DNA from: an alpha proteobacterium HIMB59
GTDB lineage: Bacteria; Pseudomonadota; Alphaproteobacteria; HIMB59
DNA: 64,000 bases
Direction: 5' to 3'
Assembly: GCA_000299115.1 (NCBI GenBank)
Contig: CP003801.1
Span: 248,001 to 312,000, forward strand
Shown: one piece after another, positions 1,550-61,278 of the stretch
How the letters are laid out: every line of letters starts with the position of its first letter
Position numbering within the stretch: the first letter of the stretch is position 1
The notes under the pieces: generated by a model
Seen by the model: the letters and a program-made list of their open reading frames with translations, nothing else
Told to the model about the DNA's origin: nothing
Database searches by the model: none
Made by a program: the position numbers and the translations under genes

Positions 1550-2677
1550 TTAAGCTGTTGGGAAGCTGAATGGGAAGTTTCTCGCTCTGAGATATTCTTT
1601 TTCAGACACACCTGTCCAGCGAATGATCGAAGATCTGAACTTCACAATGTGTGAGAATAGCTCTGAGGAAGTCGCATCTTTACTTGCGATTTCTTGAACT
1701 ACTTCACCTGCTCTTTGACCTAGTGCATTCATCACATCATCTGGCAATTGTCTCATTTGAACACCATGCTCGTTGATGAGTTTTTGATATGAACTATCAT
1801 TCACAGCTTGGAAGTGAGATAACACCTCCATGTTCACTGCTTTTGAAGCAAGAGTGATCAGCTGACGAGTAGAGTCATCTAACTTTTCCCACTCAAACAT
1901 ATCAATAGAACAATCAAGGATAGTTGCAGGCTCATGCCAACCAGGATTATAGTAATACTTTGCAGCTTGATACAAACCAGCACCTAAGTCAGCGGCTGGG
2001 CCAATCCACTCTGTACCATCAATCGCACCAGAAGCTAGTGCAGGTAACACATCTGGACCAGCAAGTAAAACGATATTAGCACCAAAAGTTTTTAGAACTT
2101 CGCCACCAAGACCTGGCATTCTGAATTTTAGGCCATCAAAGTCTGCGGTTGAGTTGATTTCTTTATTAAACCAACCACCCATTTGGTTTCCAGTATTACC
2201 CATCGGTAAGAACTTCACACCGATTTCATTATATGCCTTATCAGCAGCTTCAATACCGCCACCGTAGTAACACCATGCATTCTGCTCTTGTGCTGTTAAA
2301 CCGAAAGGTAAACAAGCAACGAACTGAGTAGCGTTACTGACGTTAGTCCAATAATAAGGAGCACCATAAGCCATTTGAGCTGCTCCAGATCGCACTGCAT
2401 CTAAAGACTCAAGACCCGGTACTAATTCACCGGCATGATAAACTTTAATATTAAGCTTATCAGAATGCGAATTGATATAACCCGCAAAACGCTCTATTGC
2501 TTTTCCTAGAAGTCCGGCTTTACCGAACGCAGAACAAGCAATCCACTCCATGTGGCCACCAGAAATAGCAGGAGCTGGAAAAGAAGAGACTGTTGCGGCA
2601 CCCAGCGCTGCAGCACCGGCACCTTTAAGAAAACTTCTTCTTTTCATGGGTTTATTATTTTTGGTTTTTTTTGCCAT
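1550..2677 (-). CDS. TRAP transporter solute-binding protein, TakP-like (DctP family)
   Basis: A 375-residue periplasmic solute receptor of the TRAP DctP family. The N-terminus carries a twin-arginine signal (K12-R13-R14-S-F-L-K) followed by a small-residue hydrophobic stretch and an AxA-like site near APAIS, which implies Tat export as a folded protein. The mature part contains GAIDGTEWIGPAADLG and YYYNPGWHEPA, typical of the 2-oxoacid/monocarboxylate (TakP-like) branch; the ligand assignment is inferred from that resemblance. M11 could be the real start, since RRSFLK follows directly. A good Shine-Dalgarno (GGAGGG) precedes ATG at 2677. The gene is followed by a strong hairpin and the GDPD gene, and its membrane partner may be the DctM gene at the window edge. 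Confidence 0.9.
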   Translation of the reverse strand: MAKKTKNNKPMKRRSFLKGAGAAALGAATVSSFPAPAISGGHMEWIACSAFGKAGLLGKAIERFAGYINSHSDKLNIKVYHAGELVPGLESLDAVRSGAAQMAYGAPYYWTNVSNATQFVACLPFGLTAQEQNAWCYYGGGIEAADKAYNEIGVKFLPMGNTGNQMGGWFNKEINSTADFDGLKFRMPGLGGEVLKTFGANIVLLAGPDVLPALASGAIDGTEWIGPAADLGAGLYQAAKYYYNPGWHEPATILDCSIDMFEWEKLDDSTRQLITLASKAVNMEVLSHFQAVNDSSYQKLINEHGVQMRQLPDDVMNALGQRAGEVVQEIASKDATSSELFSHIVKFRSSIIRWTGVSEKEYLRARNFPFSFPTA

Positions 2678-2711
2678 AAATATTTCCCTCCTAAAATTAA
2701 GAAATAATTAA

Positions 2712-3602
2712 TTATTTTTTATTGGTAATAATTATACCAACTATTACTGATACTATGCCAGCGTAATGATAGATTTGTAATGTTTCTTGAAAAACGAAAA
2801 AGGCAAGGATTCCGCCAAATATTGGCATTAAATGAAGATAAGGACCGGATTTATTAGCACCAATCAGAGCTACTCCGGTATTCCAACAAATATAAGAAAA
2901 AATACTGGGAAAAACTCCCGTGTATCCGATGACCAATAAGGACTGTTTGCTAATTTGTAAGAAATTCCCTTGGCCAAATAAATCATAAAGATAAACGGGG
3001 GAAAGCAAAATCACTGTTAATCCAAAGGAGATATATAAAAAACTAAAACCTGAAACACCTGTTTCGTTCTTCTTTAGAAAAATAGAATACAAAGCCCAAG
3101 AAGTAACAGCTAATAAGATAAATAAATCACCTGAATAAAAGTCTGATTGGAAAATATTTTGATAATTACCTTTAGCAATCACATAACTAACCCCAATAAG
3201 AGAGATGATAATCCCGATCATTTGGAAAGGATTAGTTTCTATTTTATAAAGTAAACGATTAAAAAGAATGATTAGCATTGGAGTGGTAGAAATGATTAAT
3301 AAGGCATTAATAACAGTTGTAGCGGTTAACCCCACATAGACGAAAGTATTAAACAAGGTAGGTCCTGTTAATATAATAAGAAATATAATTCCAGGTTGCT
3401 TTTTAATTAAAGGTAATTCTTTTAATGCTTTAGAAAAACAAAACGGGGTTAAAATAATAAATGCAATGACCCATCGATAGAAACCAAGTGATAAAGGAGA
3501 AACTAAACTTTCAACTGAAGCAAGTCTTCCTATAATAAAATTACCTGACCAAAACAGTGAGGCAAAACACAAAAAAATCGATGCTTTTAAAGAATTACTC
3601 AA
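2712..3602 (-). CDS. EamA/DMT-superfamily transporter
   Basis: A 296-residue inner-membrane protein of ten predicted helices arranged as two EamA repeats, the usual architecture and length of drug/metabolite transporters. Helix 1 contains the family-typical FWSGNFIIGR, and the second repeat contains a TSWALYSIFLKK segment. DMT members export amino acids, metabolites or drugs, and the substrate cannot be read from sequence. It lies between the thiolase gene (12 bp away) and the TRAP binding protein (34 bp away), all on the minus strand, so it may be the last gene of the acetoacetate operon or an independent unit. A second, unrelated DMT gene is at 54642-55526. Confidence 0.85.
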   Translation of the reverse strand: MSNSLKASIFLCFASLFWSGNFIIGRLASVESLVSPLSLGFYRWVIAFIILTPFCFSKALKELPLIKKQPGIIFLIILTGPTLFNTFVYVGLTATTVINALLIISTTPMLIILFNRLLYKIETNPFQMIGIIISLIGVSYVIAKGNYQNIFQSDFYSGDLFILLAVTSWALYSIFLKKNETGVSGFSFLYISFGLTVILLSPVYLYDLFGQGNFLQISKQSLLVIGYTGVFPSIFSYICWNTGVALIGANKSGPYLHLMPIFGGILAFFVFQETLQIYHYAGIVSVIVGIIITNKK

Positions 3603-3614
3603 AGGGTGAATTGT

Positions 3615-4763
3615 TTATAGACGCTCTATAGCCATAGCTAAACCTTGACCACCGCCAATACACATACTTGCTACCCCAAACTTTTGCTTTGTGCGTTTTA
3701 GCTGATGTGCAAGAGTTGTTACTATCCTTGTTCCAGAACATCCAATGGGATGACCTAAGGCAATAGCACCGCCAGCAATATTAAGTTTATTAAGATCAAT
3801 TTTGAGGGTTTGTTGCACTGCAACAGAGGTTGCTGCAAAAGCCTCATTAATTTCAATAAGATCAAAAAAACTTATATTTACCGACATTTTTTTCATCAAT
3901 TTCTGAATAGCTGTAATAGGAGTGATGCCCATATAGTCCGGATTACCAGCAGAAGAAGACCAAGATAAAATCTTAGCAAGTGGTTTAATTTTATTAGCTT
4001 TGACATAATCATGTGAGGCGATCGCTAAAAAAGCTGCTCCATCATTTAAGGAAGAGGCATTGCCCGCAGTAACAGTTCCATTTTTTTTAAAAACTGGTTT
4101 GAGCTGAGTAAGCTTAGAGGAAGTCGTATCTTGTCGAACTTCGTCTTTTAAGGGAGATTGACATAATTCATTTTTAAAATATTTATTTTTTAAAGCCTTA
4201 TAAGTTTTTACATATGACCCATATGCGTATTGATCTTGATCTAAGCGAGATACTCCATATTTTTTAGAAACGTTTTCAGCTGTAATTCCCATATGTTCTT
4301 GAGAAAAAGCATCAGTTAATCCATCATGAACAAGAGTGTCGATGAAAACGTTATTTCCTAATTTTTTCTCACCAGTTCTACTTAAATATGCATGACGTGC
4401 TCGAGACATGCTTTCCTGTCCACCAGCAATCACTAAATCAAATTCCTTGGTGTAAATTTTTAAAGATGCTTCAATCGCAGCTCTCATGCCACTTCCACAG
4501 ACTTGGTTGACTACATAAGCAAAAGAAGATTGAGCCATGCCTGATTTTAAAGCAACTTGACGAGCTGTATTCATTCCCAGTCCACTTGTTAATACTTGGC
4601 CTAAAACTAAACCCTCAGCATCATTCTTTTTTATTTTTTTATTACGTTGAAATAAATCTTGAAGACAATGAGTTCCTAATTCCACAGATTCAGTTTTTTT
4701 ATATTGTCCAAGATAGGCACCAATAGGAGTACGAACACCATCGATAATATAAATATCACTCAT
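3615..4763 (-). CDS. thiolase / acetyl-CoA C-acetyltransferase
   Basis: A 382-residue thiolase, somewhat shorter than the usual 390-395. The nucleophilic cysteine is C89 in NQVCGSGM; the C-terminal catalytic pair is present as GGAIALGHPIGCSG (His) and CIGGGQG (Cys), and NEAFA is also seen. It should catalyse thiolytic cleavage of acetoacetyl-CoA to two acetyl-CoA, or the reverse condensation. It overlaps by 8 bp the end of the acetoacetyl-CoA synthetase gene. Together they convert acetoacetate to acetoacetyl-CoA and then acetyl-CoA, which favours the biosynthetic-type (AtoB/PhaA-like) assignment over a long-chain thiolase. No polyhydroxybutyrate genes are nearby, so a catabolic role seems more likely. 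Confidence 0.9.
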   Translation of the reverse strand: MSDIYIIDGVRTPIGAYLGQYKKTESVELGTHCLQDLFQRNKKIKKNDAEGLVLGQVLTSGLGMNTARQVALKSGMAQSSFAYVVNQVCGSGMRAAIEASLKIYTKEFDLVIAGGQESMSRARHAYLSRTGEKKLGNNVFIDTLVHDGLTDAFSQEHMGITAENVSKKYGVSRLDQDQYAYGSYVKTYKALKNKYFKNELCQSPLKDEVRQDTTSSKLTQLKPVFKKNGTVTAGNASSLNDGAAFLAIASHDYVKANKIKPLAKILSWSSSAGNPDYMGITPITAIQKLMKKMSVNISFFDLIEINEAFAATSVAVQQTLKIDLNKLNIAGGAIALGHPIGCSGTRIVTTLAHQLKRTKQKFGVASMCIGGGQGLAMAIERL

Positions 4764-6675
4764 TAATTTTAATCTCTCTATACTCTTGGACAGACTCTGG
4801 GTTAGCTAAAGCTCCAAGATTTTGGACTTTATCATTATTAATTATATTTTTGACAAGAATTTCAGAATTTTTTCCACTCTTAGTTCTTGGGATATCTTTT
4901 ACAACGAAAGTTTTCCAAGGTACATGGCGTGGACTAAGGGTTGATTTTAAATGCTTTTTAATTAATTCGGTAAAATTGTTAGGTATTTTGTTTTTTACGG
5001 ACTTAATGAATAAAACCACTCTCTCATCATTATCTGTTAAGTAGCCCGTTGCCAAACTATCATCAATCCATGAGAAGTTCTGTAGTGCACTATAAATTTC
5101 ACCCGTTCCAATTCTCACCCCTCCCGGATTTAGCGTAGCATCTGACCTTCCATAGATTATATAGCCCCCATTTTTAGTTTTTTTTACATAGTCGCCATGT
5201 GCCCATATGTTTTTAAATTTTTCAAAATAGGCTGATTGATATTTTTTATAACTTTTATCATTCCAAAAAAAGATGGGTTTAGAGGGGAAGGGTGTTTTAC
5301 AGACTAATTCTCCGGTCATGTTAGTCGGTTTACCTTTTTCATTAAAGACATCGATATTCATTCCTAAACCTGGTCCTTGAATCTCTCCTGCATAGACAGG
5401 TATTGTAGGAACTCCTAACATGAAACATGAAACAATATCAGTTCCACCGCTAATGGAGTGAATGAAAGATTTTTTATTCAGATTTTGATTAATAAATCGA
5501 AAAGTAGAACTACTTAAAGGAGAGCCAGTCGAAATAAAGCATTTTATATCAGGCAAAATATTTTTTTTCTTAGGGTTATGATTATTTTGTATAGCCTCGT
5601 AAATCTTAGCTCCTGCACCTAGCATATTTGATTTAAATTTTTTTGTTAATTGAATAACTCTATCTTTGGAGGGATAAAAAGGAGATCCATCATATAAGGC
5701 AATACTAGAACCTAATAATAAATTAGAAACAGTCCAATTCCACATCATCCATCCACAGGTAGTTAAAAAAAACATTTTATCTTCCTTCTTAACGTTCGTA
5801 TGAAGAGATAGCTCTTTTAAGTGTTGCAATAATGAGCCCCCATGACCATGTGTGATACATTTTGGAAGCCCCGTTGTACCGCTCGAGAAAAGGACATACA
5901 AAGGGTGATTAAAATCTACTAATTTAGTTTTTTCCTCTAAATGATACTTCTCATTTCTATAAATTCTATGAAGTTCAGAGCGATTATTTTTACATGGATA
6001 GGAGGTTTTAAGAATTTTAGGATTGCCTATTTTGGATCTGATTTGTCTTAGGTTCTTTGAATAATCATACTTTTTTCCGTTATAAAAATAATGATCTGCA
6101 ACTATGAGCAACTTAGGTTTTAATTGAGAAAATCGATCAATAACCGCCTTCACACCAAAATCAGAAGAACATGAAGACCAAACAGCTCCTATTTTAGCAG
6201 AAGCCAAAAAAGCAATGATTGTATCAGCAATATTTGGTAAATAGCCGACAACTACATCACCTTTTTTAATCCCCAAAGATAGATAATAAGAACTTAACGC
6301 ATTTACTTTTGAATTAAGCTCACTATAGGATATTTTTTCTTCATAATTATTTTCCCCTATGAAGTGAATAGCTAAACTATTCGATTTATTTTTTTCTATA
6401 AGTTGGAAATAATTGGTTTGAAAATTAAAAAAAAAATTATTTTTCCAAAACTGCACATTTTTTTGAATTAGTTTTGAATTTTTATTTTTAATAAGAGGGA
6501 CTTGATAAAAATCAGTAATTGATTTCCAAAAATCACTAGGATTTTTAACTGACCAATTCCACAATTGAGAATAATTTTTAAACTTTTTTTTATAGTTCTT
6601 ATCAAGATAATCTTCATAAAAATAAAGATTAGAACTTTTGATTTTTTTTTGTGTTGGTTGAAATAATTTAGACAT
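4756..6675 (-). CDS. acetoacetate-CoA ligase (acetoacetyl-CoA synthetase)
   Basis: A 639-residue ANL-superfamily acyl-CoA synthetase. It has the AMP-binding P-loop FSSGTTGLPK, the acetoacetate-ligase hallmark TTCGWMMWNWTVSNLL, a SGGTDI adenine-binding motif, the hinge YGRSDATLNPGG and the C-terminal catalytic lysine segment PRTKSGKNSE. Length and the GWMMWNW motif fit acetoacetate-CoA ligase rather than acetyl-CoA synthetase, which is present separately at 58194-60110. The enzyme activates acetoacetate with ATP and CoA in the cytoplasm. Its start overlaps the YbgC-like gene by 8 bp and its end overlaps the thiolase by 8 bp, so the three form one tightly coupled operon. The N-terminus is unusually lysine- and asparagine-rich. 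Confidence 0.92.
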   Translation of the reverse strand: MSKLFQPTQKKIKSSNLYFYEDYLDKNYKKKFKNYSQLWNWSVKNPSDFWKSITDFYQVPLIKNKNSKLIQKNVQFWKNNFFFNFQTNYFQLIEKNKSNSLAIHFIGENNYEEKISYSELNSKVNALSSYYLSLGIKKGDVVVGYLPNIADTIIAFLASAKIGAVWSSCSSDFGVKAVIDRFSQLKPKLLIVADHYFYNGKKYDYSKNLRQIRSKIGNPKILKTSYPCKNNRSELHRIYRNEKYHLEEKTKLVDFNHPLYVLFSSGTTGLPKCITHGHGGSLLQHLKELSLHTNVKKEDKMFFLTTCGWMMWNWTVSNLLLGSSIALYDGSPFYPSKDRVIQLTKKFKSNMLGAGAKIYEAIQNNHNPKKKNILPDIKCFISTGSPLSSSTFRFINQNLNKKSFIHSISGGTDIVSCFMLGVPTIPVYAGEIQGPGLGMNIDVFNEKGKPTNMTGELVCKTPFPSKPIFFWNDKSYKKYQSAYFEKFKNIWAHGDYVKKTKNGGYIIYGRSDATLNPGGVRIGTGEIYSALQNFSWIDDSLATGYLTDNDERVVLFIKSVKNKIPNNFTELIKKHLKSTLSPRHVPWKTFVVKDIPRTKSGKNSEILVKNIINNDKVQNLGALANPESVQEYREIKINE

Positions 6676-7057
6676 TTATGGCAGTAATAAGTGGTTCTGG
6701 AATTTTTAATGGCTTTCCTTTAGAGTTTATATTAACCATTAAAACTTCAGACTCAAAAATAGCCTTATCTTCTCTGTAAATAATTTGTTCTAATTTAAAT
6801 GATGCTTTTTTAATTTCTAGAAATTTAGTTTTAATTGATAGTTCATCTTCTAATTTGGCTGATTGGATATAATTACAATGAATATTTTTGACGACAAAAT
6901 GACAATCATAATTTTCACTTAATGATCTTAAAGAAAAACCTAATTCTTGAATTAAATTTGTACGAGCTCTTTCTATAAATTTAAGATAATTAGCATAATA
7001 TACAACTCCACCTGAGTCTGTATCTTCATAATAAACTTTTGTATTAAATTGATACAT
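6668..7057 (-). CDS. YbgC-like acyl-CoA thioesterase (4HBT, hot-dog fold)
   Basis: A 129-residue single hot-dog domain. The 4-hydroxybenzoyl-CoA thioesterase signature is plain: YYEDTDSGGVVYYANYLKF with the catalytic aspartate, then IERART. In many proteobacteria YbgC sits with tol-pal genes, but here it is first in the acetoacetyl-CoA synthetase/thiolase operon. A role in hydrolysing short acyl-CoAs such as acetoacetyl-CoA is therefore possible (inference). The ATG directly abuts the stop codon of a possible 26-codon ORF upstream. Confidence 0.85.
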   Translation of the reverse strand: MYQFNTKVYYEDTDSGGVVYYANYLKFIERARTNLIQELGFSLRSLSENYDCHFVVKNIHCNYIQSAKLEDELSIKTKFLEIKKASFKLEQIIYREDKAIFESEVLMVNINSKGKPLKIPEPLITAINV

Positions 7058-7138
7058 TTAAGTAATAAAACCTAAGTAAAGTAGATAAGTGATAATAATT
7101 ATAGCGATACCAAATATTAAATATCGATATTCTTCCAT
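7058..7138 (-). CDS. possible 26-residue membrane microprotein
   Basis: An ATG at 7138 opens a 26-codon frame on the minus strand whose product is MEEYRY followed by an almost continuous hydrophobic helix (LIFGIAIIIITYLLYLGFIT). Its TAA directly touches the ATG of the YbgC-like gene, a spacing that allows translational coupling. No Shine-Dalgarno is seen. I do not recognise it. It could be a single-span microprotein, a translated leader, or chance; an AT-rich stretch readily yields hydrophobic codons. Confidence 0.3.
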   Translation of the reverse strand: MEEYRYLIFGIAIIIITYLLYLGFIT

Positions 7139-7168
7139 TTTATATTCTGAGCAAAATTAGAAAAAAAA

Positions 7169-8101
7169 TTATAATTCCTTCTCAAAATAACTTATTGTTT
7201 TTTTTAATCCATTTTCCAGATTTACTACAGGTTTCCAGTTTAGTGTTTTTTTTGCCAAAGTTATATCTGGTCTTCTTTGCATTGGATCATCTGATGGTAA
7301 TTTTTTATAAGAAATTTTAGACTTACTCCCAATGATTTCTTTAATAGTAGAAGCAATTTGAATAATCGTAATCTCGTTGGGATTACCTAAGTTGATAGGA
7401 CCTATAATTGATTTCTTAGAATTCATGAGTTTGAATATTCCATCAATTAAATCATCAACAAAGCAAAAACTTCGAGTCTGGCTTCCATCTCCATAAATAG
7501 TAATCGGTTTGTTTTTGAGACATTGCACGATAAAGTTTGAAACAACTCTCCCATCATTAACTGACATTCTGGGGCCGTAGGTATTAAAAATTCTGCCAAC
7601 CTTTATTGGAATTTTATGTTGTCTATGATAATCAAAAAAAAGGGCTTCAGCTGCTCTCTTTCCTTCATCATAACAACTACGGATACCAATCGGATTTACA
7701 TTACCCCAATAGTTTTCTTTTTGAGGGGAAACCTTAGGGTCACCATAAACTTCACTTGTAGATGCTTGAAATATTTTTGCTTTTGTCCTTTTGGCCAACC
7801 CAAGCATATTAACTGCTCCCATAATATTAACTTTTAAAGTTTGAACTGGATCTTTTTGATAATGAATTGGGGAAGCGGGGCAGGCCAAATTATAAATTTC
7901 ATCAACTTCAGCGTATAAAGGAAAAGTAATATCATGACGCAAAATTTCAAAATTTGGAAAGTCTAATAAATGAGAGATATTTTTTTTAGAACTAGTAAAA
8001 TAATTATCCACACATAAAATATGGTTTTTTGAGTTTAATAATTTTTCGCAAAGATGACTTCCTAAAAATCCAGATCCACCAGTAATTAATATTTTTTTCA
8101 T
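7169..8101 (-). CDS. UDP-glucuronate decarboxylase (UDP-xylose synthase), SDR family
   Basis: A 310-residue extended short-chain dehydrogenase. It has the NAD-binding GGSGFLGSH at 8-16, the UXS-typical DITFPLY and [12 protein letters not shown], the STSEVYGDP motif and the catalytic Y-x3-K as CYDEGKR, then [10 protein letters not shown] and RSFCFVDDL. These are diagnostic for UDP-glucuronate decarboxylase, which makes UDP-xylose for glycans. It lies 22 bp downstream of a GDP-mannose-3,5-epimerase-like gene on the same strand, forming a two-gene nucleotide-sugar unit. No glycosyltransferase is next to it, so the acceptor is unknown. Assignment is strong; a closely related dTDP-glucose dehydratase is less likely because of the CPASP loop. 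Confidence 0.9.
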
Positions 8102-8123
8102 TATATATAATATTTATTAATAT

Positions 8124-9119
8124 TTAACTCTTCGTAAATATCAATGACTCGTTTTTATGATTTCTAATCATATCTTCAATCCAATAGTAAGTCTTTTCTA
8201 ATCCTTGTCGAAGGGTGTACCGAGGCTCCCAAGATAATTCCTTTTTAATTTTTTCATTATTGCTAGATCTACCTCTAACACCAACTGGCATATTAGTATT
8301 ATATTTTCTGGATACTTTATAATCAGCGATGTCTTCGATCATATCAATCATTTGATTAATAGAAACTTGTTCTTCGCTTCCAATATTTATAGGGCCATGA
8401 AAATCGGAATTGAAAAGACTTAGAGTAGCATCAACACAATCATCAATAAATAAGTAAGATCTTGTTTGTTCTCCATCTCCCCAAACCTCAATATCTTTTG
8501 TGCCTTCGAATTTTGCTTCTGCAACTTTTCGACATAAGGCAGCAGGTGATTTCTCTCTGCCACCATCAAAAGTTCCAAGTGGGCCAAATATATTATGATA
8601 ACGAGCTACTTTAGTGTCTAAATTAAAATCCTCTAAAAAATGTCTACACATTCTTTCACTAAAAAGCTTCTCCCAACCATATCCATCTTCAGGATTAGCT
8701 GGGTAAGCATCCTCTTCTTTTAGACCTTCTATAAAAGTATTTTGCTGTAAATCTTTATTATAAGCGCATGCTGTGGATGAAAAAAAATATTTTTTTATTT
8801 TGAATTTTTCACATGCTATTAGCATGTGAGTGTTAATTAACACTGAAATCATGCATTTAGCTTTATTCCACTCAATAAAACCGATACCGCCCATATTACA
8901 GGCCATGTTGATCACGTAATCATGACCCTTAACTATCTTTTCGCAATTTTCTAAAACTTTAAGATCTAAGGAATTATTATTAGAACCATCATGTATTTGG
9001 AACCAAAGTTCTAAGGGCTTAATATCAACACAGGTAACCTGATGTCCTTCACTTAACAATCTCTGGCTAATATGACCACCTATGAAGCCACCTGCTCCAC
9101 ATATTAAGTATTTCATCAA
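8124..9119 (-). CDS. NAD-dependent epimerase, GDP-mannose 3,5-epimerase-like
   Basis: A 331-residue extended SDR sugar-nucleotide epimerase. Visible are GAGGFIGGH at the N-terminus, the GME-type NMGGIGFIEWN loop, SSTACAYN, the catalytic YGWEKL (Y-x3-K), ARYHNIFGP, and the RSYLFIDDC and GPINIGS stretches. The NMGG-GFI loop and the YGWEK active site resemble plant-type GDP-mannose 3,5-epimerases, giving GDP-L-galactose or GDP-L-gulose. The substrate is inferred from these motifs only. The gene is upstream of UDP-xylose synthase on the same strand and starts 70 bp from tRNA-Arg. MMKYLI gives two adjacent possible start codons. Confidence 0.82.
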   Translation of the reverse strand: MMKYLICGAGGFIGGHISQRLLSEGHQVTCVDIKPLELWFQIHDGSNNNSLDLKVLENCEKIVKGHDYVINMACNMGGIGFIEWNKAKCMISVLINTHMLIACEKFKIKKYFFSSTACAYNKDLQQNTFIEGLKEEDAYPANPEDGYGWEKLFSERMCRHFLEDFNLDTKVARYHNIFGPLGTFDGGREKSPAALCRKVAEAKFEGTKDIEVWGDGEQTRSYLFIDDCVDATLSLFNSDFHGPINIGSEEQVSINQMIDMIEDIADYKVSRKYNTNMPVGVRGRSSNNEKIKKELSWEPRYTLRQGLEKTYYWIEDMIRNHKNESLIFTKS

Positions 9120-12161: not shown

Positions 12162-12237
12162 CTAAGTTAATTTAATTACTAGGTTTAGTAGCATAAGAAA
12201 TCATATTGTTCTATATATTGTGGATATTTCAATTTTC

Positions 12238-12266
12238 TTGATGTTGTTTTCTGCTCAAATTATAAT
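12238..12266 (+). promoter_or_regulatory. strong sigma-70-type promoter
   Basis: TTGATG at 12238-12243 and a perfect TATAAT at 12261-12266 are separated by exactly 17 bases. This is the best housekeeping promoter I can see in the window. The predicted transcription start is near 12272-12274, just before the structured RNA. It drives transcription rightwards, away from the membrane-protein gene at 10683-12161. Confidence 0.75.
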
Positions 12267-12272
12267 GAGTTT

Positions 12273-12378
12273 AAGAGAGAAAATCTCTATTTTTACAGCC
12301 TTATAGAAGCGGCTTTTTTCTTAGTGGGCCACTTCTTTCTTAAAAGGGTTAGGACAAATAGTTCTAACCCTTTTTTTG
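12273..12378 (+). ncRNA. structured small RNA or attenuator leader
   Basis: Directly behind the promoter lies about 105 bases that can fold into three hairpins. They are AGAGA/TCTCT at 12276-12288; a longer imperfect stem at 12305-12336 pairing GAAGCGGC with GGGCCACTTC (one mismatch); and the terminator at 12342-12377. No open reading frame of note lies inside. The RNA ends 22 bp before a 42-codon ORF and about 140 bp before the aminotransferase gene. It can be either an independent sRNA or a cis-acting leader that terminates transcription before them. I do not recognise a known riboswitch class. Confidence 0.55.
12342..12377 (+). terminator. intrinsic terminator of the small RNA
   Basis: AAAAGGGTTAGGAC, loop AAATA, GTTCTAACCC and then seven T. 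The stem is about 14 bp with one G-U pair and is followed immediately by the T run, so it is a textbook rho-independent terminator reading rightwards. It separates the promoter at 12238 from the genes at 12400 and 12521. Confidence 0.85.
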
Positions 12379-12399
12379 TTTCTAGATTATCATTTTATC

Positions 12400-12528
12400 A
12401 TGTTGAAATTAGCTTTCATGGTAATATTTTTTTTTCTAGGATACTTTTTAGCTGATACAAAACTAATAGAGATTCCTTTTAAGGATATGCCCTATTTAGA
12501 AAAACTTTATGAGGTGGTAGATGATTAA
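12400..12528 (+). CDS. possible 42-residue membrane protein upstream of the aminotransferase
   Basis: ATG at 12400 opens a 42-codon frame. The product begins with a hydrophobic helix (LKLAFMVIFFFLGYFLAD) followed by a charged tail ending in LEKLYEVVDD. It overlaps the aminotransferase start by 8 bp, and the GAGGTGG Shine-Dalgarno of that gene lies inside it, so the two could be translationally coupled. No Shine-Dalgarno precedes its own ATG. It follows the terminator at 12342-12377. I do not recognise it. The helix-plus-charged-tail layout is more protein-like than a random AT-rich frame, but the evidence is modest. Confidence 0.4.
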   Translation: MLKLAFMVIFFFLGYFLADTKLIEIPFKDMPYLEKLYEVVDD

Positions 12529-13867
12529 TACTGATAACGTTCTTCACGGTTTTACCGATCTAAAAAACTTAGACTCACTAGGTCCGATTGTCTTGAATCA
12601 AGCAAAAGGAATTTATGTGTATGACCAAGATGGAAAAAAATATCTTGATGCAAATTCTGGTTTATGGAATTCCGTCGTTGGGTTTGATCACCCTCGAATG
12701 ATTGAAACGGCTAAAAAACAATATGAAAAATTTTCTGGTTACCATGCTTTCTTTGGAAGAATTTCTGAACCTGCAGTGCAACTAGCTGATAAACTTATCG
12801 AAATTTCTCCTTTTAAAAGCGGAAAGGTTTTTTACACTAACTCTGGCTCCGAAGCCAATGATACAACAGTTAAACTTTTATGGTTTATTAATCGTCGTAA
12901 AGGAAAACCCAATCGAAGAAAGATAATTACTCGCATCAACTCTTATCATGGTGTAACGGCTGTCTCAGCTTCAATGACAGGAAAGCCCTATAACAGCGAA
13001 TTTGGTCTTCCATTAGATGGTTTTTTACATGCCTCATGTCCTCATTATTGGAAATATTCTGAGCAAAATGAAAGTGAAGAGGAATTTACAAATAGAATGG
13101 GCGAGGATTTAGAGAGTTTAATTCAAAAAGAGGGGGCAGATACCATTGCAGGATTTTTTGCAGAACCAGTAATGGGCGCAGGTGGCGTCATTCCACCTTC
13201 ACAAGGATACTTTGATGTAGTTCAAAAAATTTTAAAAAAATACAATATTCCTTTTATTGCTGATGAGGTCATATGTGGCTTTGGTCGTACTGGAAATCTT
13301 TGGGGCTCTCAAACTTATAATATTCAACCTGATATTTTAATCGCATCTAAATGCATCACCTCAGGCTTTTTCCCTTTAGGCGCTGTCATACTTGGAGAAA
13401 AAATGACCCAAGAAATGATGGAAGCTTCCTATAAAGCCGAGGAATTCTTTCACGGATTCACAGCGGGTGGGCATCCTGTAGGTTGCGCTCTAGCGCTTGA
13501 GGCTATCGATATCATTATTAATGAGAAAATGATTGAGAATGTTCGAAATTTAGAACCCATATTTATGGGAGGTTTGAAAAAATTTGAAGAGCTTGAATTT
13601 ATCGGAGAGGCTAGAGGTATTGGTCTAATGGGCGCCCTGGAAATGGTCCACGATAAAAAAACTAAAACACCATTTGATGGATCTATCTCGATTGGTGAGC
13701 GAGTAGCTAATCAATGCATTGAGAACGGATTAATCTGTAGACCTTTAGGTCCATCCATTGTTCTTTGTCCTCCTTTTATCACCACAGAAGATGAAATGGG
13801 AATAATTTTTGAAACGTTAGATAAGACACTAAGAAAAGTTTTTGACGAAGTTAAATCTCTAGGATAA
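12521..13867 (+). CDS. class III PLP-dependent aminotransferase
   Basis: A 448-residue omega-aminotransferase of the Aminotran_3 family. Visible are the cofactor phosphate loop SGSEANDT, the Tyr-His pair SYHG, the aspartate motif IADEVICGFGRTG and the Schiff-base lysine in IASKCITSG. Such enzymes transfer a terminal amino group of diamines, beta-alanine, GABA or taurine to pyruvate or 2-oxoglutarate; overall the sequence looks most like amine-pyruvate transaminases, but the substrate is not fixed. ATG at 12521 has a good GAGGTGG site 5 bases upstream. The gene lies downstream of a promoter-leader-terminator unit, so attenuation is possible. It converges with the quinone oxidoreductase, overlapping 17 bp. 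Confidence 0.88.
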   Translation: MINTDNVLHGFTDLKNLDSLGPIVLNQAKGIYVYDQDGKKYLDANSGLWNSVVGFDHPRMIETAKKQYEKFSGYHAFFGRISEPAVQLADKLIEISPFKSGKVFYTNSGSEANDTTVKLLWFINRRKGKPNRRKIITRINSYHGVTAVSASMTGKPYNSEFGLPLDGFLHASCPHYWKYSEQNESEEEFTNRMGEDLESLIQKEGADTIAGFFAEPVMGAGGVIPPSQGYFDVVQKILKKYNIPFIADEVICGFGRTGNLWGSQTYNIQPDILIASKCITSGFFPLGAVILGEKMTQEMMEASYKAEEFFHGFTAGGHPVGCALALEAIDIIINEKMIENVRNLEPIFMGGLKKFEELEFIGEARGIGLMGALEMVHDKKTKTPFDGSISIGERVANQCIENGLICRPLGPSIVLCPPFITTEDEMGIIFETLDKTLRKVFDEVKSLG

Positions 13868-36666: not shown

Positions 36667-36799
36667 TGTAACAAAAAAAAGCTAAACAAATAAAATGTTG
36701 ACTTAATTTAATACTTTTTTAATGTTTTTTTTAGTAAATGAATATTTTTAAATATTCGTTTTATACTTGCTAGTAAGTATAAAAAGTAAGGAGGCTATA

Positions 36800-39257: not shown

Positions 39258-39390
39258 TCTACAGTTTGTAATAATTTGTTATCTATTTTTTGCCACTGTT
39301 TGTGCTGTGACAACGATTATAATTATGCTGCTAAAGAAAAAAGTCTTTAATAAGAGCAGTGCAAATTATCAAATTAAACCGGCAGATTAA
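39250..39390 (+). CDS. ccmD: heme exporter protein CcmD (46 residues)
   Basis: ATG at 39250 overlaps the ccmC stop and opens 46 codons. The product has a hydrophobic helix (FVIICYLFFATVCAVTTIIIMLL), a KKK stop-transfer and a polar C-tail, the layout of CcmD, a small single-span factor that joins CcmC and CcmE. Length, position between ccmC and ccmE and topology all fit; sequence similarity in this family is low, so position is the main evidence. It overlaps ccmE by 32 bp. Confidence 0.75.
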   Translation: MTSLQFVIICYLFFATVCAVTTIIIMLLKKKVFNKSSANYQIKPAD

Positions 39391-58197: not shown

Positions 58198-60110
58198 AAG
58201 ACTTTCCTTTAAACAACCCCCTACTCACTCAAGAACAATACGATCAAATGTATGCTGACTCTTTTACAAATAAAGAGCAGTTTTGGTCAAAAATTGCCAA
58301 AGAACAAGTCACTTGGTTTAAAGATTTTACTAAGATCAAAAATACTAACTACGAAGGAGATGTTTCCATTAAGTGGTTTGAAGATGGAGAATTAAACGTC
58401 TGTTATAACTGCGTGGATCGACATGCTGAGCAAAGACCCGATGATACGGCCATCATTTGGGAGGGAGATGATCCAAGCCAATCCAAAACCTATACCTATA
58501 AAGAATTACAAAGCGAGGTTAGTCGATTTGCCAATGTGCTTAAAAAACTTGGCGTCAAAAAAGGTGATCGCGTTACTATTTATCTGACGATGATCCCAGA
58601 GGTGGCGTTCGCGATGCTGGCGTGTACTCGTATTGGTGCTATTCACTCTGTGATCTTTGGTGGTTTTGCACCGGAGTCAATTGCAGGACGTATTCAAGAT
58701 TGCCAATCTCAATTTGTTATTACTGCTGATGAGGGACTTCGAGGTGGAAAAACTATCCCTTTAAAAAAATATATTAATACAGCCCTAGAGAGCTGTGATG
58801 ACTCGATTAAAACATTAGTTGTTCGTTATACGAATACTCAAGATGATCTTCATCAAAAAAATGATTTTTATTATGATGAGCTTCTAAAAGAAGTTGATGA
58901 TCAATGTGCGTGCGAGCCCATGAATGCTGAAGACCCTTTGTTTATTTTATATACCTCAGGTTCAACTGGAAAACCCAAAGGTGTTTTACATACAACAGGA
59001 GGTTATTTAGTTTATGCCTCTTTTACACATAAATACTCTTTTGATTACCATCCTGGAGATGTTTATTGGTGCACTGCGGATGCGGGTTGGATTACCGGTC
59101 ACTCTTATTCTTTATATGGTCCGCTTGCTAACGGAGCTCAAACGCTACTCTTTGAAGGCGTGCCTAACTATCCTGATTTTTCAAGATTTTGGCAAGTATG
59201 TGATAAGCACAAAGTCAATATTTTCTATACAGCGCCAACAGCAATACGCGCTTTAATGAAAGAAGGAAATGATTTTGTCACTCAATGTGATTTATCCTCT
59301 CTTCGTATTTTAGGAACTGTGGGTGAACCCATCAATCCAGAGGCTTGGAACTGGTACTCTAGTATTGTTGGAAAAGATAAATGTCCTGTCGTCGATACTT
59401 GGTGGCAAACAGAAACAGGAGGACATTTAATCTCTCCTATACCAGGTGTCACTAAACTCAAGCCCGGAAGCGCAACACATCCCTACTTTGGAATTGAAGC
59501 AGTGATCGTCGACGATAATGGAAACGTTTTAGAGGGAGAGTGTGAGGGCAAACTGTGCATGCTAGATAGTTGGCCTGGTCAAATGAGAACGGTTTATGGA
59601 AATCATCAACGTTTTGTAGAAACGTATTTTAGTCAGTTTAAAGGAAAGTATTTCACCGGAGATGGTTGTCGTCGTGATAAAGATGGTTTTTATTGGATAA
59701 CAGGTCGTGTTGATGATTGTATTAATGTGTCAGGTCATTTGTTGGGCACTGCTGAAATAGAAAGTGCCTTTGTGGAGCATGCACTCGTATCAGAAGCGGC
59801 AGTTGTCGGATATCCTCACGATATTAAGGGTCAAGGAATTTATGCCTACGTCACTACTAACACGGGAGTAGAAGTAAGTGATGAATTAAAAAAAGAGCTA
59901 ACATTATGGATACGTCAAAAAATTGGGCCTATTGCTACCCCTGATAAAATTCAATTTGCACCCGGGCTGCCCAAAACAAGATCAGGGAAAATCATGAGAA
60001 GAATTCTTCGTAAAATCGCATCCCATGAGGAAGATCAATTGGGAGACACTTCAACGCTCGCCGATCCCGGAGTGGTACAATCTTTAATAGACGGGTCTAA
60101 AGATATCTAG
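58194..60110 (+). CDS. acs: acetyl-CoA synthetase
   Basis: A 638-residue AMP-forming acetyl-CoA synthetase. The P-loop is [19 protein letters not shown], substrate pocket [11 protein letters not shown], hinge [13 protein letters not shown] and the acetylation-regulated lysine in [11 protein letters not shown]. It activates acetate for the TCA cycle. Together with acetoacetyl-CoA synthetase it gives two acyl-activating routes. Its stop lies at the beginning of the RsmB frame. Confidence 0.96.
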
Positions 60111-61278
60111 TCAATCAGATATTGCTAATTTATATCAATCGATAAAACGTATTGATGAGGGTGGTAGCATTGACGCTGCCGTTGAAAGATTTGATACTAT
60201 TAAAAGAGGATTTTTATTCTTAGCGATCCAAGAATATTATCGCAATATTGAAAATTTTCATATTTTACTCAAAAAATACATTAGTGACAAAACCCCAAAA
60301 AATATTTTAATCATTCTTAAAATAAATTTAGTACTCTTTTTTTTTTCAAAGAAACCCCAGCACGCAATAGTTCACGATGCCGTAGAATTTTCAAAACAGT
60401 TTGATAAATCTAAACTCATTAATGCTGTATTAAGAAATATTCTTCGAGATAAAGAAAGTTTAATAATAGAAAAAAATCTTCCTGATAATTTTCAAAAAAT
60501 TTTAGATAAAATATTTTCTAGTAGTAAAATCAGAGAATATCTATATCAAACATTTTTTACAAAACCTGTAGATTATCAAATTTGCCTTAGCGACCATAAG
60601 GAAGCTATTTATGAAAAAAGAGTTTTGCCATTTAAATCAAAATTGTTAAAAAATTGTTTTGTTCAAGATATTGGAAATTATGAAGTCATTCATGCTACTC
60701 ACCATTTTTTTAAATCAAAAAAAATACTTGATGTATGTTCTGCCCCTGGAGGCAAATCTATACTTATGCACTCTTTAGGATATGAGGTAGATTGTATTGA
60801 TAAGTCGAATTCTCAAATCATAAAATTTAAAGAAAATCTTAAGAGATTAAACCTAAATTTAAATATTCAAAAAAAAGATTTTTTAAAATTAACAACTAAT
60901 CAAAGTATGCCATCTATTCTTTTAGATGCACCGTGCAGTGCTCTTGGAACCTTTCGCCGTAATCCTGATGTTGCCTCAAAAATCAATCAATCAAAACTGA
61001 AACGAAACCAAAAAATTCAAATACAAATGCTCGACAAAGCAATTAACATTTTAGATGAAAATGGGATAATTGTTTATATTGTGTGCTCTTTTCATCCCTT
61101 TGAGACAATCAACGTCATTGATAAAATCACTGAAAAACATAAGAATATTCGTACACTTAATTTACAGTCCGATAAAATGATAAAAAGACAAAATGGATAT
61201 TTTATCAATCCACTCACATTTAAGGAATTGGGTGGCTCTGATATATTTTTTGTATCGGTGTTAAAAAAAACAAAATGA
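60103..61278 (+). CDS. rsmB: 16S rRNA m5C967 methyltransferase RsmB, non-standard start
   Basis: The frame is open from 60091 to 61278 with no ATG, GTG or TTG before 60619. The N-terminal part translates as a NusB-like RNA-binding domain ([20 protein letters not shown]..., [28 protein letters not shown]). The C-terminal part is the methyltransferase with CSAPGGKS, the catalytic [15 protein letters not shown] and [11 protein letters not shown], where PCS and VCS carry the cysteines. The NusB-like domain belongs in RsmB, so annotation from TTG 60619 or below would amputate it. Likely starts are ATA 60103, overlapping the acs stop, or ATT 60121. Sequence or assembly error is possible but the frame is intact. 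About 391 residues. Confidence 0.8.

Follow-up and report, generated by a model that had tools for sequence, protein, structure and literature searches.

We analysed a window of 64,000 nucleotides, corresponding to positions 248001–312000 of a single-contig genome of 1,410,127 bases (G000) whose near relatives are HIMB59-type Alphaproteobacteria. A sequence-only reading of this window had drawn attention to a possible orphan structured RNA, flanked by a consensus promoter and a terminator, ahead of a 42-codon open reading frame (ORF) and a class III aminotransferase gene. Both downstream genes are indeed present (Table 1), and the aminotransferase also scores above the cut-off of NCBIfam NF004767/PRK06105. 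The stop of the 42-codon ORF overlaps the start of the aminotransferase gene, the strong Shine-Dalgarno sequence of which (−10.1 kcal/mol) is placed inside the small ORF. The small ORF begins with a hydrophobic N-terminal segment (MLKLAFMVIFFFLGYFLADTKLIEIPF...), is kept in the genus members examined, three distant ones included, and has no family match in Pfam or NCBIfam; at one locus (L044) it apparently contains one extra base. Between the terminator of the RNA and this ORF lies a TATATTAT-like stretch that is kept in most close relatives in the alignment and that, by our own reading, might serve the 42-codon ORF as a promoter of its own, giving a near-leaderless mRNA. The divergent gene on the other side of the RNA gave no match in Pfam and none in NCBIfam.

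Table 1. Features of the RNA locus in window coordinates
Feature	Position	Strand	Remarks
Divergent 492-aa gene, neighbour of the RNA	12161–10683	-	Hydrophobic by eye
Block just 5' of the −35 box (TTCTATATATTGTGG[A/T]TATTTCAATTTTC)	12209–12237	+	94.8% identity
Sigma-70-type promoter, TTGATG-17-TATAAT	12238–12266	+	Hexamer pair kept in 30/30 distinct homologues
Small RNA gene, ~105 nt (predicted ends)	12273–12377	+	Covariance-model matches in 46/52 genus genomes
Hairpin P1 (AGAGA-GAAAA-TCTCT)	12274–12288	+	Sequence variable, pairing mostly kept
Single-stranded linker ATTTTTACAGCCTTAT, candidate seed	12289–12304	+	97.7% identity (block 12290–12308)
Hairpin P2, conserved U-rich loop (TTTTCTTAGT)	12305–12336	+	96.9% identity (block 12309–12340)
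Intrinsic terminator, 14-bp stem and T run	12342–12377	+	4/14 pairs with two-sided changes
42-aa small ORF, neighbour, outside the RNA	12400–12528	+	Codon-position identities 0.80/0.93/0.61
Class III aminotransferase gene, neighbour	12521–13867	+	Pfam PF00202, E 1.1e-92

The gap between the divergent gene and the aminotransferase gene is 359 bp long. As it contains the conserved 42-codon ORF, its ORF-free part is just ~238 bp (12162–12399). The gap had been described as the only non-coding one of more than 300 bp in the window, which was too strict: by a crude gene call (120 aa or more) there are five others of this size. Smaller ORFs occupy four of them, and inspection by eye suggests that the fifth contains the beginning of an rsmB-like gene. 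No other non-coding gap in the window is likely to be larger than the one that bears the RNA. The gene for the RsmB-like methyltransferase was located at 60091–61278 (+), with the Pfam RsmB/F match on 60625–61275. Its frame, followed by eye, runs upstream without ATG, GTG or TTG after an in-frame TAG at 60088–60090, and the gene may use a rare start codon.

The promoter proposed for the RNA was found as described, with the −35 hexamer TTGATG at 12238–12243 and the −10 hexamer TATAAT at 12261–12266. Twenty-four of the 30 distinct homologues have an identical hexamer pair and the other six show one or two base changes or a 16-bp spacer, so that the spacing is 16–17 in all of them; 28 of the 30 were gathered by a pattern that itself requires a CTTGA-type −35, a pattern that failed in two of 42 upstream regions (one cut by a contig end, one with the RNA elsewhere). 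The stretch from −35 to −10 as a whole is 75.5% identical (nine between-clade comparisons). In this AT-rich DNA, promoter-like sites (7 in 2 kb versus 8.3 expected) and terminator-like sites (1 in 2 kb versus 1.1 expected) both occur at chance level, and the case for the RNA therefore rests on comparison and conservation. Conservation also extends upstream of the −35 box: over nine between-clade comparisons, positions 12210–12237 have a mean identity of 94.8%, compared to 42–61% at flanking third codon positions. This pattern suggests that the upstream block is probably a regulator site or an UP-type promoter element. When we searched four genomes with TATATWGTGGWTATTTC, allowing up to two mismatches, other matches were at the level of the reversed-pattern control, and hence this search detected no regulon for the block.

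The three hairpins that had been read into the ~105 bases after the promoter were all recovered, among them the 14-bp terminator with its seven T (stem 12342–12374, loop of 5), four of which lie inside the stem. The ends of the RNA are predicted, the start from the −10 box and the end from the terminator. The minimum free energy of 12273–12378 was −35.3 kcal/mol, compared to −20.6 ± 3.5 kcal/mol for shuffled sequences (z −4.3), and none of 200 shuffles was as good. Compensatory changes in the stems, the check that had been set beforehand, were found among the relatives: two-sided changes occurred in 8 of the 31 base pairs (15 cells) compared to 1.9 in shuffles, and none of 500 shuffles reached as high a value. 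In the alignment of 20 sequences (near-identical ones and the contig-end-cut L019 and L104 were left out), 93.7% of the cells were paired versus 41–64% in slid versions, the alignment having been fitted to the covariance model, which favours the structure. In the terminator this fraction was 97.9%. P1, with two-sided changes in three of its six pairs, has a sequence identity of only 68.6%, and the hairpin was still predicted in 20 of 20 homologues when their 5' ends were refolded; it is weak or altered in L009, L011 and L090, and the alignment puts the P1 arms of window-type rows off register. The support for P2 is thinner, since just one of its 11 pairs has a two-sided change (G-C to A-U). 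In addition, a C·A mismatch in P2 of 16 sequences is a U-A pair in the remaining four, and the P2 fold was recovered in all six homologues that were folded.

We then compared the level of conservation of the RNA with that of its surroundings in nine between-clade comparisons among seven of the 11 aligned close sequences, with the three distant homologues kept out of the figures. Mean identity was 97.7% in the linker block (which takes in the first bases of P2), 96.9% in P2 and 94.9% in the terminator, while it was 49–68% in the neighbouring spacers. Third codon positions reached 42% in the divergent gene, 61% in the small ORF and 53% in the aminotransferase gene. The linker and the U-rich loop of P2, which are unneeded for internal pairing, are thus nearly invariant in close relatives; in the distant homologues the linker is of the type TTTTTTGCAGACTAAA. 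Furthermore, when 108 non-coding segments from 372 kb were compared between G000 and a second species (G017), the RNA ranked first with 219 bits, and the four tRNA genes scored 129–141 bits. Some of the other segments on this list are missed small genes. Three further conserved segments that are non-coding or uncalled, at 106870–107015, 205208–205335 and 284674–284768 of the G000 contig (the last being window 36674–36768), are 80–88% identical between G000 and G017 over 96–146 aligned bases and may be small genes or further RNAs. A short coding sequence, such as a leader peptide, could in principle also be conserved in this way, and some frames are stop-free in several homologues. However, there is no ATG, GTG or TTG at a common position, indels shift the frames between homologues, and the core is near-invariant at all positions in close relatives, with pairing conserved instead; we regard a coding function of the block as extremely improbable. 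On this comparative evidence, the element is a real structured RNA gene.

To describe its distribution, we relied on the aminotransferase upstream regions and on R1, a covariance model for which 13 close sequences were used. Forty of 42 upstream regions (41 loci and the window) carry the whole element on the same strand, directly before the 42-codon ORF; the two others are L019, which ends with its contig, and L033, which has other DNA there. Among the 52 genus genomes, R1 matched at one location per matching genome (a reversed terminator aside), with partial matches at contig ends in G003 and G030. The RNA is present in all ten genus genomes that are at least 90% complete, and the six genomes without a match are 65–79% complete. 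R1 also found three distant homologues that are absent from its building set (G024, 47.7 bits; G013, 41.6 bits; G015, 38.6 bits). False matches on the minus strand, which come from the palindromic terminator read in reverse and were left out of the counts, reached up to 36.8 bits. The distant scores come near this level, so the case for these three homologues draws in addition on where they lie, ahead of the aminotransferase gene, and on their BLAST matches (E 2.5e-14, 3.5e-9 and 2.4e-5).

Outside the genus, none of 110 other genomes of the order matched the covariance model. In a sample of the class (385 genomes) there were four weak matches (E 0.0012–0.0091), about the number expected by chance at E up to 0.01 over ~380 genomes. 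In ten sister-family genomes, inspection by eye of the 730 bases that precede the best aminotransferase match showed no such element. Viral contigs yielded none with two exact patterns, and phage records yielded none by blastn.

We also asked how the RNA relates to known families. Rfam, which curates many motifs of the type of the structured RNAs of 'Candidatus Pelagibacter ubique', contains no matching family: a search of the whole window against Rfam 15 gave two tRNAs only, with the RNA under every gathering cut-off, and at a relaxed threshold only chance matches appeared, the best being rseX (21.6 bits versus 50 needed). This agrees with the earlier remark that no known riboswitch class was recognised. 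Trans-encoded bacterial sRNAs are in general transcribed from their own promoter and end at an intrinsic terminator. The present RNA resembles them in its length of ~105 nt, its one intergenic place per genome, its conserved promoter, its three hairpins including a terminator and its conserved single-stranded segments. It differs from them in that Hfq and ProQ were undetected, in the missing Rfam match and in its restriction to one genus. Candidate structured RNAs have been found by comparison in P. ubique, likewise a streamlined marine alphaproteobacterium (PMC2704228); the main text of that paper does not contain the word 'aminotransferase', and the likeness noted here is in the general kind of RNA and the type of organism. 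The literature searched, a partial coverage and hence weak evidence, contained no report of an sRNA from the HIMB59 lineage, and the main text of a marine primary-transcriptome study does not name HIMB59 and names AEGEAN-169 once, for community composition (PMC5069720). We class the RNA as a new family within a known type of sRNA.

Neither Hfq (PF17209; 5 of 14 control genomes positive) nor ProQ (PF04352; 1 of 14 positive) was detected in G000, and consequently an sRNA that acts by base pairing would have to do so with a different chaperone or unaided. The classification as an Hfq-dependent sRNA was rejected for lack of a PF17209 match. 6S RNA (RF00013; 5 of 14 control genomes positive) was not detected in G000 either. 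This raises the question whether the RNA could itself be a protein-binding or structural RNA, 6S-like or a protein sponge, that acts by no base pairing. Its one place per matching genus genome and its near-invariant single strands would suit such a function, as would the undetected 6S RNA. In contrast, 6S RNA is a long bulged hairpin, while the RNA described here consists of three separate hairpins and has no Rfam match, and we consider this function improbable.

The sequence-only reading had left two options, a free sRNA or a transcription-attenuating leader, possibly responsive to a ligand. A leader (possibly a riboswitch) of the operon formed by the 42-codon ORF and the aminotransferase gene, with a terminator that opens under some condition, would be consistent with the compact, conserved structure of the RNA and with the arrangement in 40 of 42 upstream regions, where the RNA lies immediately ahead of the ORF and in the same orientation. 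Like terminator-type riboswitches and attenuators, it is a structured RNA with a terminator upstream of a metabolic gene; unlike them, it shows no alternative antiterminator fold, and its link with the aminotransferase is broken in one genome. A mutually exclusive antiterminator was not found in 20 homologues. At its best, pairing between upstream RNA and the terminator arm reached −5.8 to −10.7 kcal/mol (in most cases between about −6 and −8), compared to −14.5 to −21.7 kcal/mol for the terminator itself, and in 17 of the 20 it was weaker than the mean of dinucleotide shuffles; in the three distant homologues it equalled or slightly exceeded the shuffles (z −0.2 to −0.65). Just past the terminator, the 42-codon ORF lacks a Shine-Dalgarno sequence (+0.4 kcal/mol). 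This is a weak argument against a leader, as −4 kcal/mol is reached by only 23 of the 68 genes in the crude call.

The genome that breaks the link (G019, locus L152) retains the RNA with its promoter as well as the 42-codon ORF, all of them intact, and an insertion of ~6.8 kb precedes the aminotransferase gene, which starts ~6.9 kb downstream of the RNA. As the RNA is kept despite the insertion, it does not need an adjacent aminotransferase gene. The 42-codon ORF is still directly downstream of the RNA in G019, so a leader role for that ORF would still fit. The insertion contains genes for a cupin, a glycosyltransferase, an ABC-transporter set with a solute-binding protein and an FAD-dependent oxidoreductase. 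By our own reading, the ABC transporter (L152, G019:C5, within 2414–9107) has a spermidine/putrescine layout of solute-binding protein, two permeases and ATPase, a hint that the aminotransferase may act on polyamines. Taken together, the missing antiterminator and the uncoupling in G019 fit poorly with an attenuator or a ligand-responsive leader, which we judge to be rather unlikely, and we favour a free small RNA.

We therefore propose, with a probability of about 0.7, that 12238–12377 forms an independent small RNA gene, complete with promoter and terminator. Its product would most probably work in trans through base pairing that does not require Hfq. Transcription would start near 12273 from the conserved sigma-70 promoter, with the conserved upstream block as a putative regulatory element, and would stop at the intrinsic terminator near 12377. 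The predicted discrete transcript would consist of a variable 5' hairpin, the strictly conserved linker, P2 with its conserved U-rich loop, and the terminator hairpin. The linker and/or the P2 loop would most likely pair with mRNAs.

To look for candidate targets, we compared four segments of the RNA with 276 orthologous start regions, taken from 372 kb of G000 (~26% of the genome) and 360 kb of G017. Overall, the best energies were within or near those of shuffled controls. With the linker, the best energy was −13.5 kcal/mol, while the best of the shuffled linkers had a mean of −12.2 and a lowest value of −15.3 kcal/mol among 20. With the P2 loop, the best was −18.4 versus a shuffled lowest of −17.7, and 70 sites at −9 kcal/mol or below were found compared to 68.2 in shuffles. 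The best P2-loop site (~39330–39350) lies inside a small ORF coding for a lysine run, which is probably ccmD by its position before ccmE, and was set aside as low-complexity matching. The junction CACUUCUUUCUUAA had 13 sites at −9 or below versus 5.5 in shuffles (highest 15) and a best energy of −12.8 versus a shuffled lowest of −12.9, its sites being mostly Shine-Dalgarno-like AAGGAG stretches, which amounts to a mild excess of such sites. The segment of P1 loop and linker had 6 sites versus 17 in shuffles.

For the linker, one of four segments tried, the neighbouring aminotransferase gene ranked first among the 276 start regions. The RNA might thus pair with the ribosome-binding site of this gene, in trans or in cis on a read-through RNA, and repress its translation; in the trans form, this idea overlaps with the stand-alone sRNA that we favour. 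The linker stretch UUUUACAGCCUUAUA matches UAUGAGGUUGUAGA, which includes the GAGG Shine-Dalgarno sequence, and 17 of 24 loci allow a run of as many as 14 consecutive pairs, with energies of −14.6 to −21.6 kcal/mol and shuffle p values of 0.000–0.011. However, these 17 loci are related and not independent, the ranking energy of −13.5 is within the best values of shuffled linkers, and the site doubles as coding sequence of the 42-codon ORF. Moreover, the pairing is absent in seven of the 24 loci (L034, L019, L032, L152, L089, L090 and L091; the L019 linker was assumed from relatives), and the aminotransferase can therefore be at most one target. As the linkers of L034 and L032 are unchanged over the pairing stretch, and that of L152 differs at one base, pairing with this site does not explain the conservation of the linker. 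Repression of the aminotransferase by the RNA is accordingly doubtful.

Streamlined ocean bacteria have very short spacers; for the HIMB59 family, one study gives a mean of 2.35 bp (PMC10734472). A non-coding gene that is more strongly conserved than the adjacent coding sequence in such a genome probably matters for fitness. A far-reaching possibility, which we think unlikely, is that the RNA is an ultraconserved, genus-wide master sRNA under its own dedicated promoter control, which would exert global control with no chaperone, or with a new one, in a highly streamlined free-living lineage. In a lineage without detected Hfq, ProQ and 6S RNA, this RNA is a short, cloneable entry to RNA regulation.
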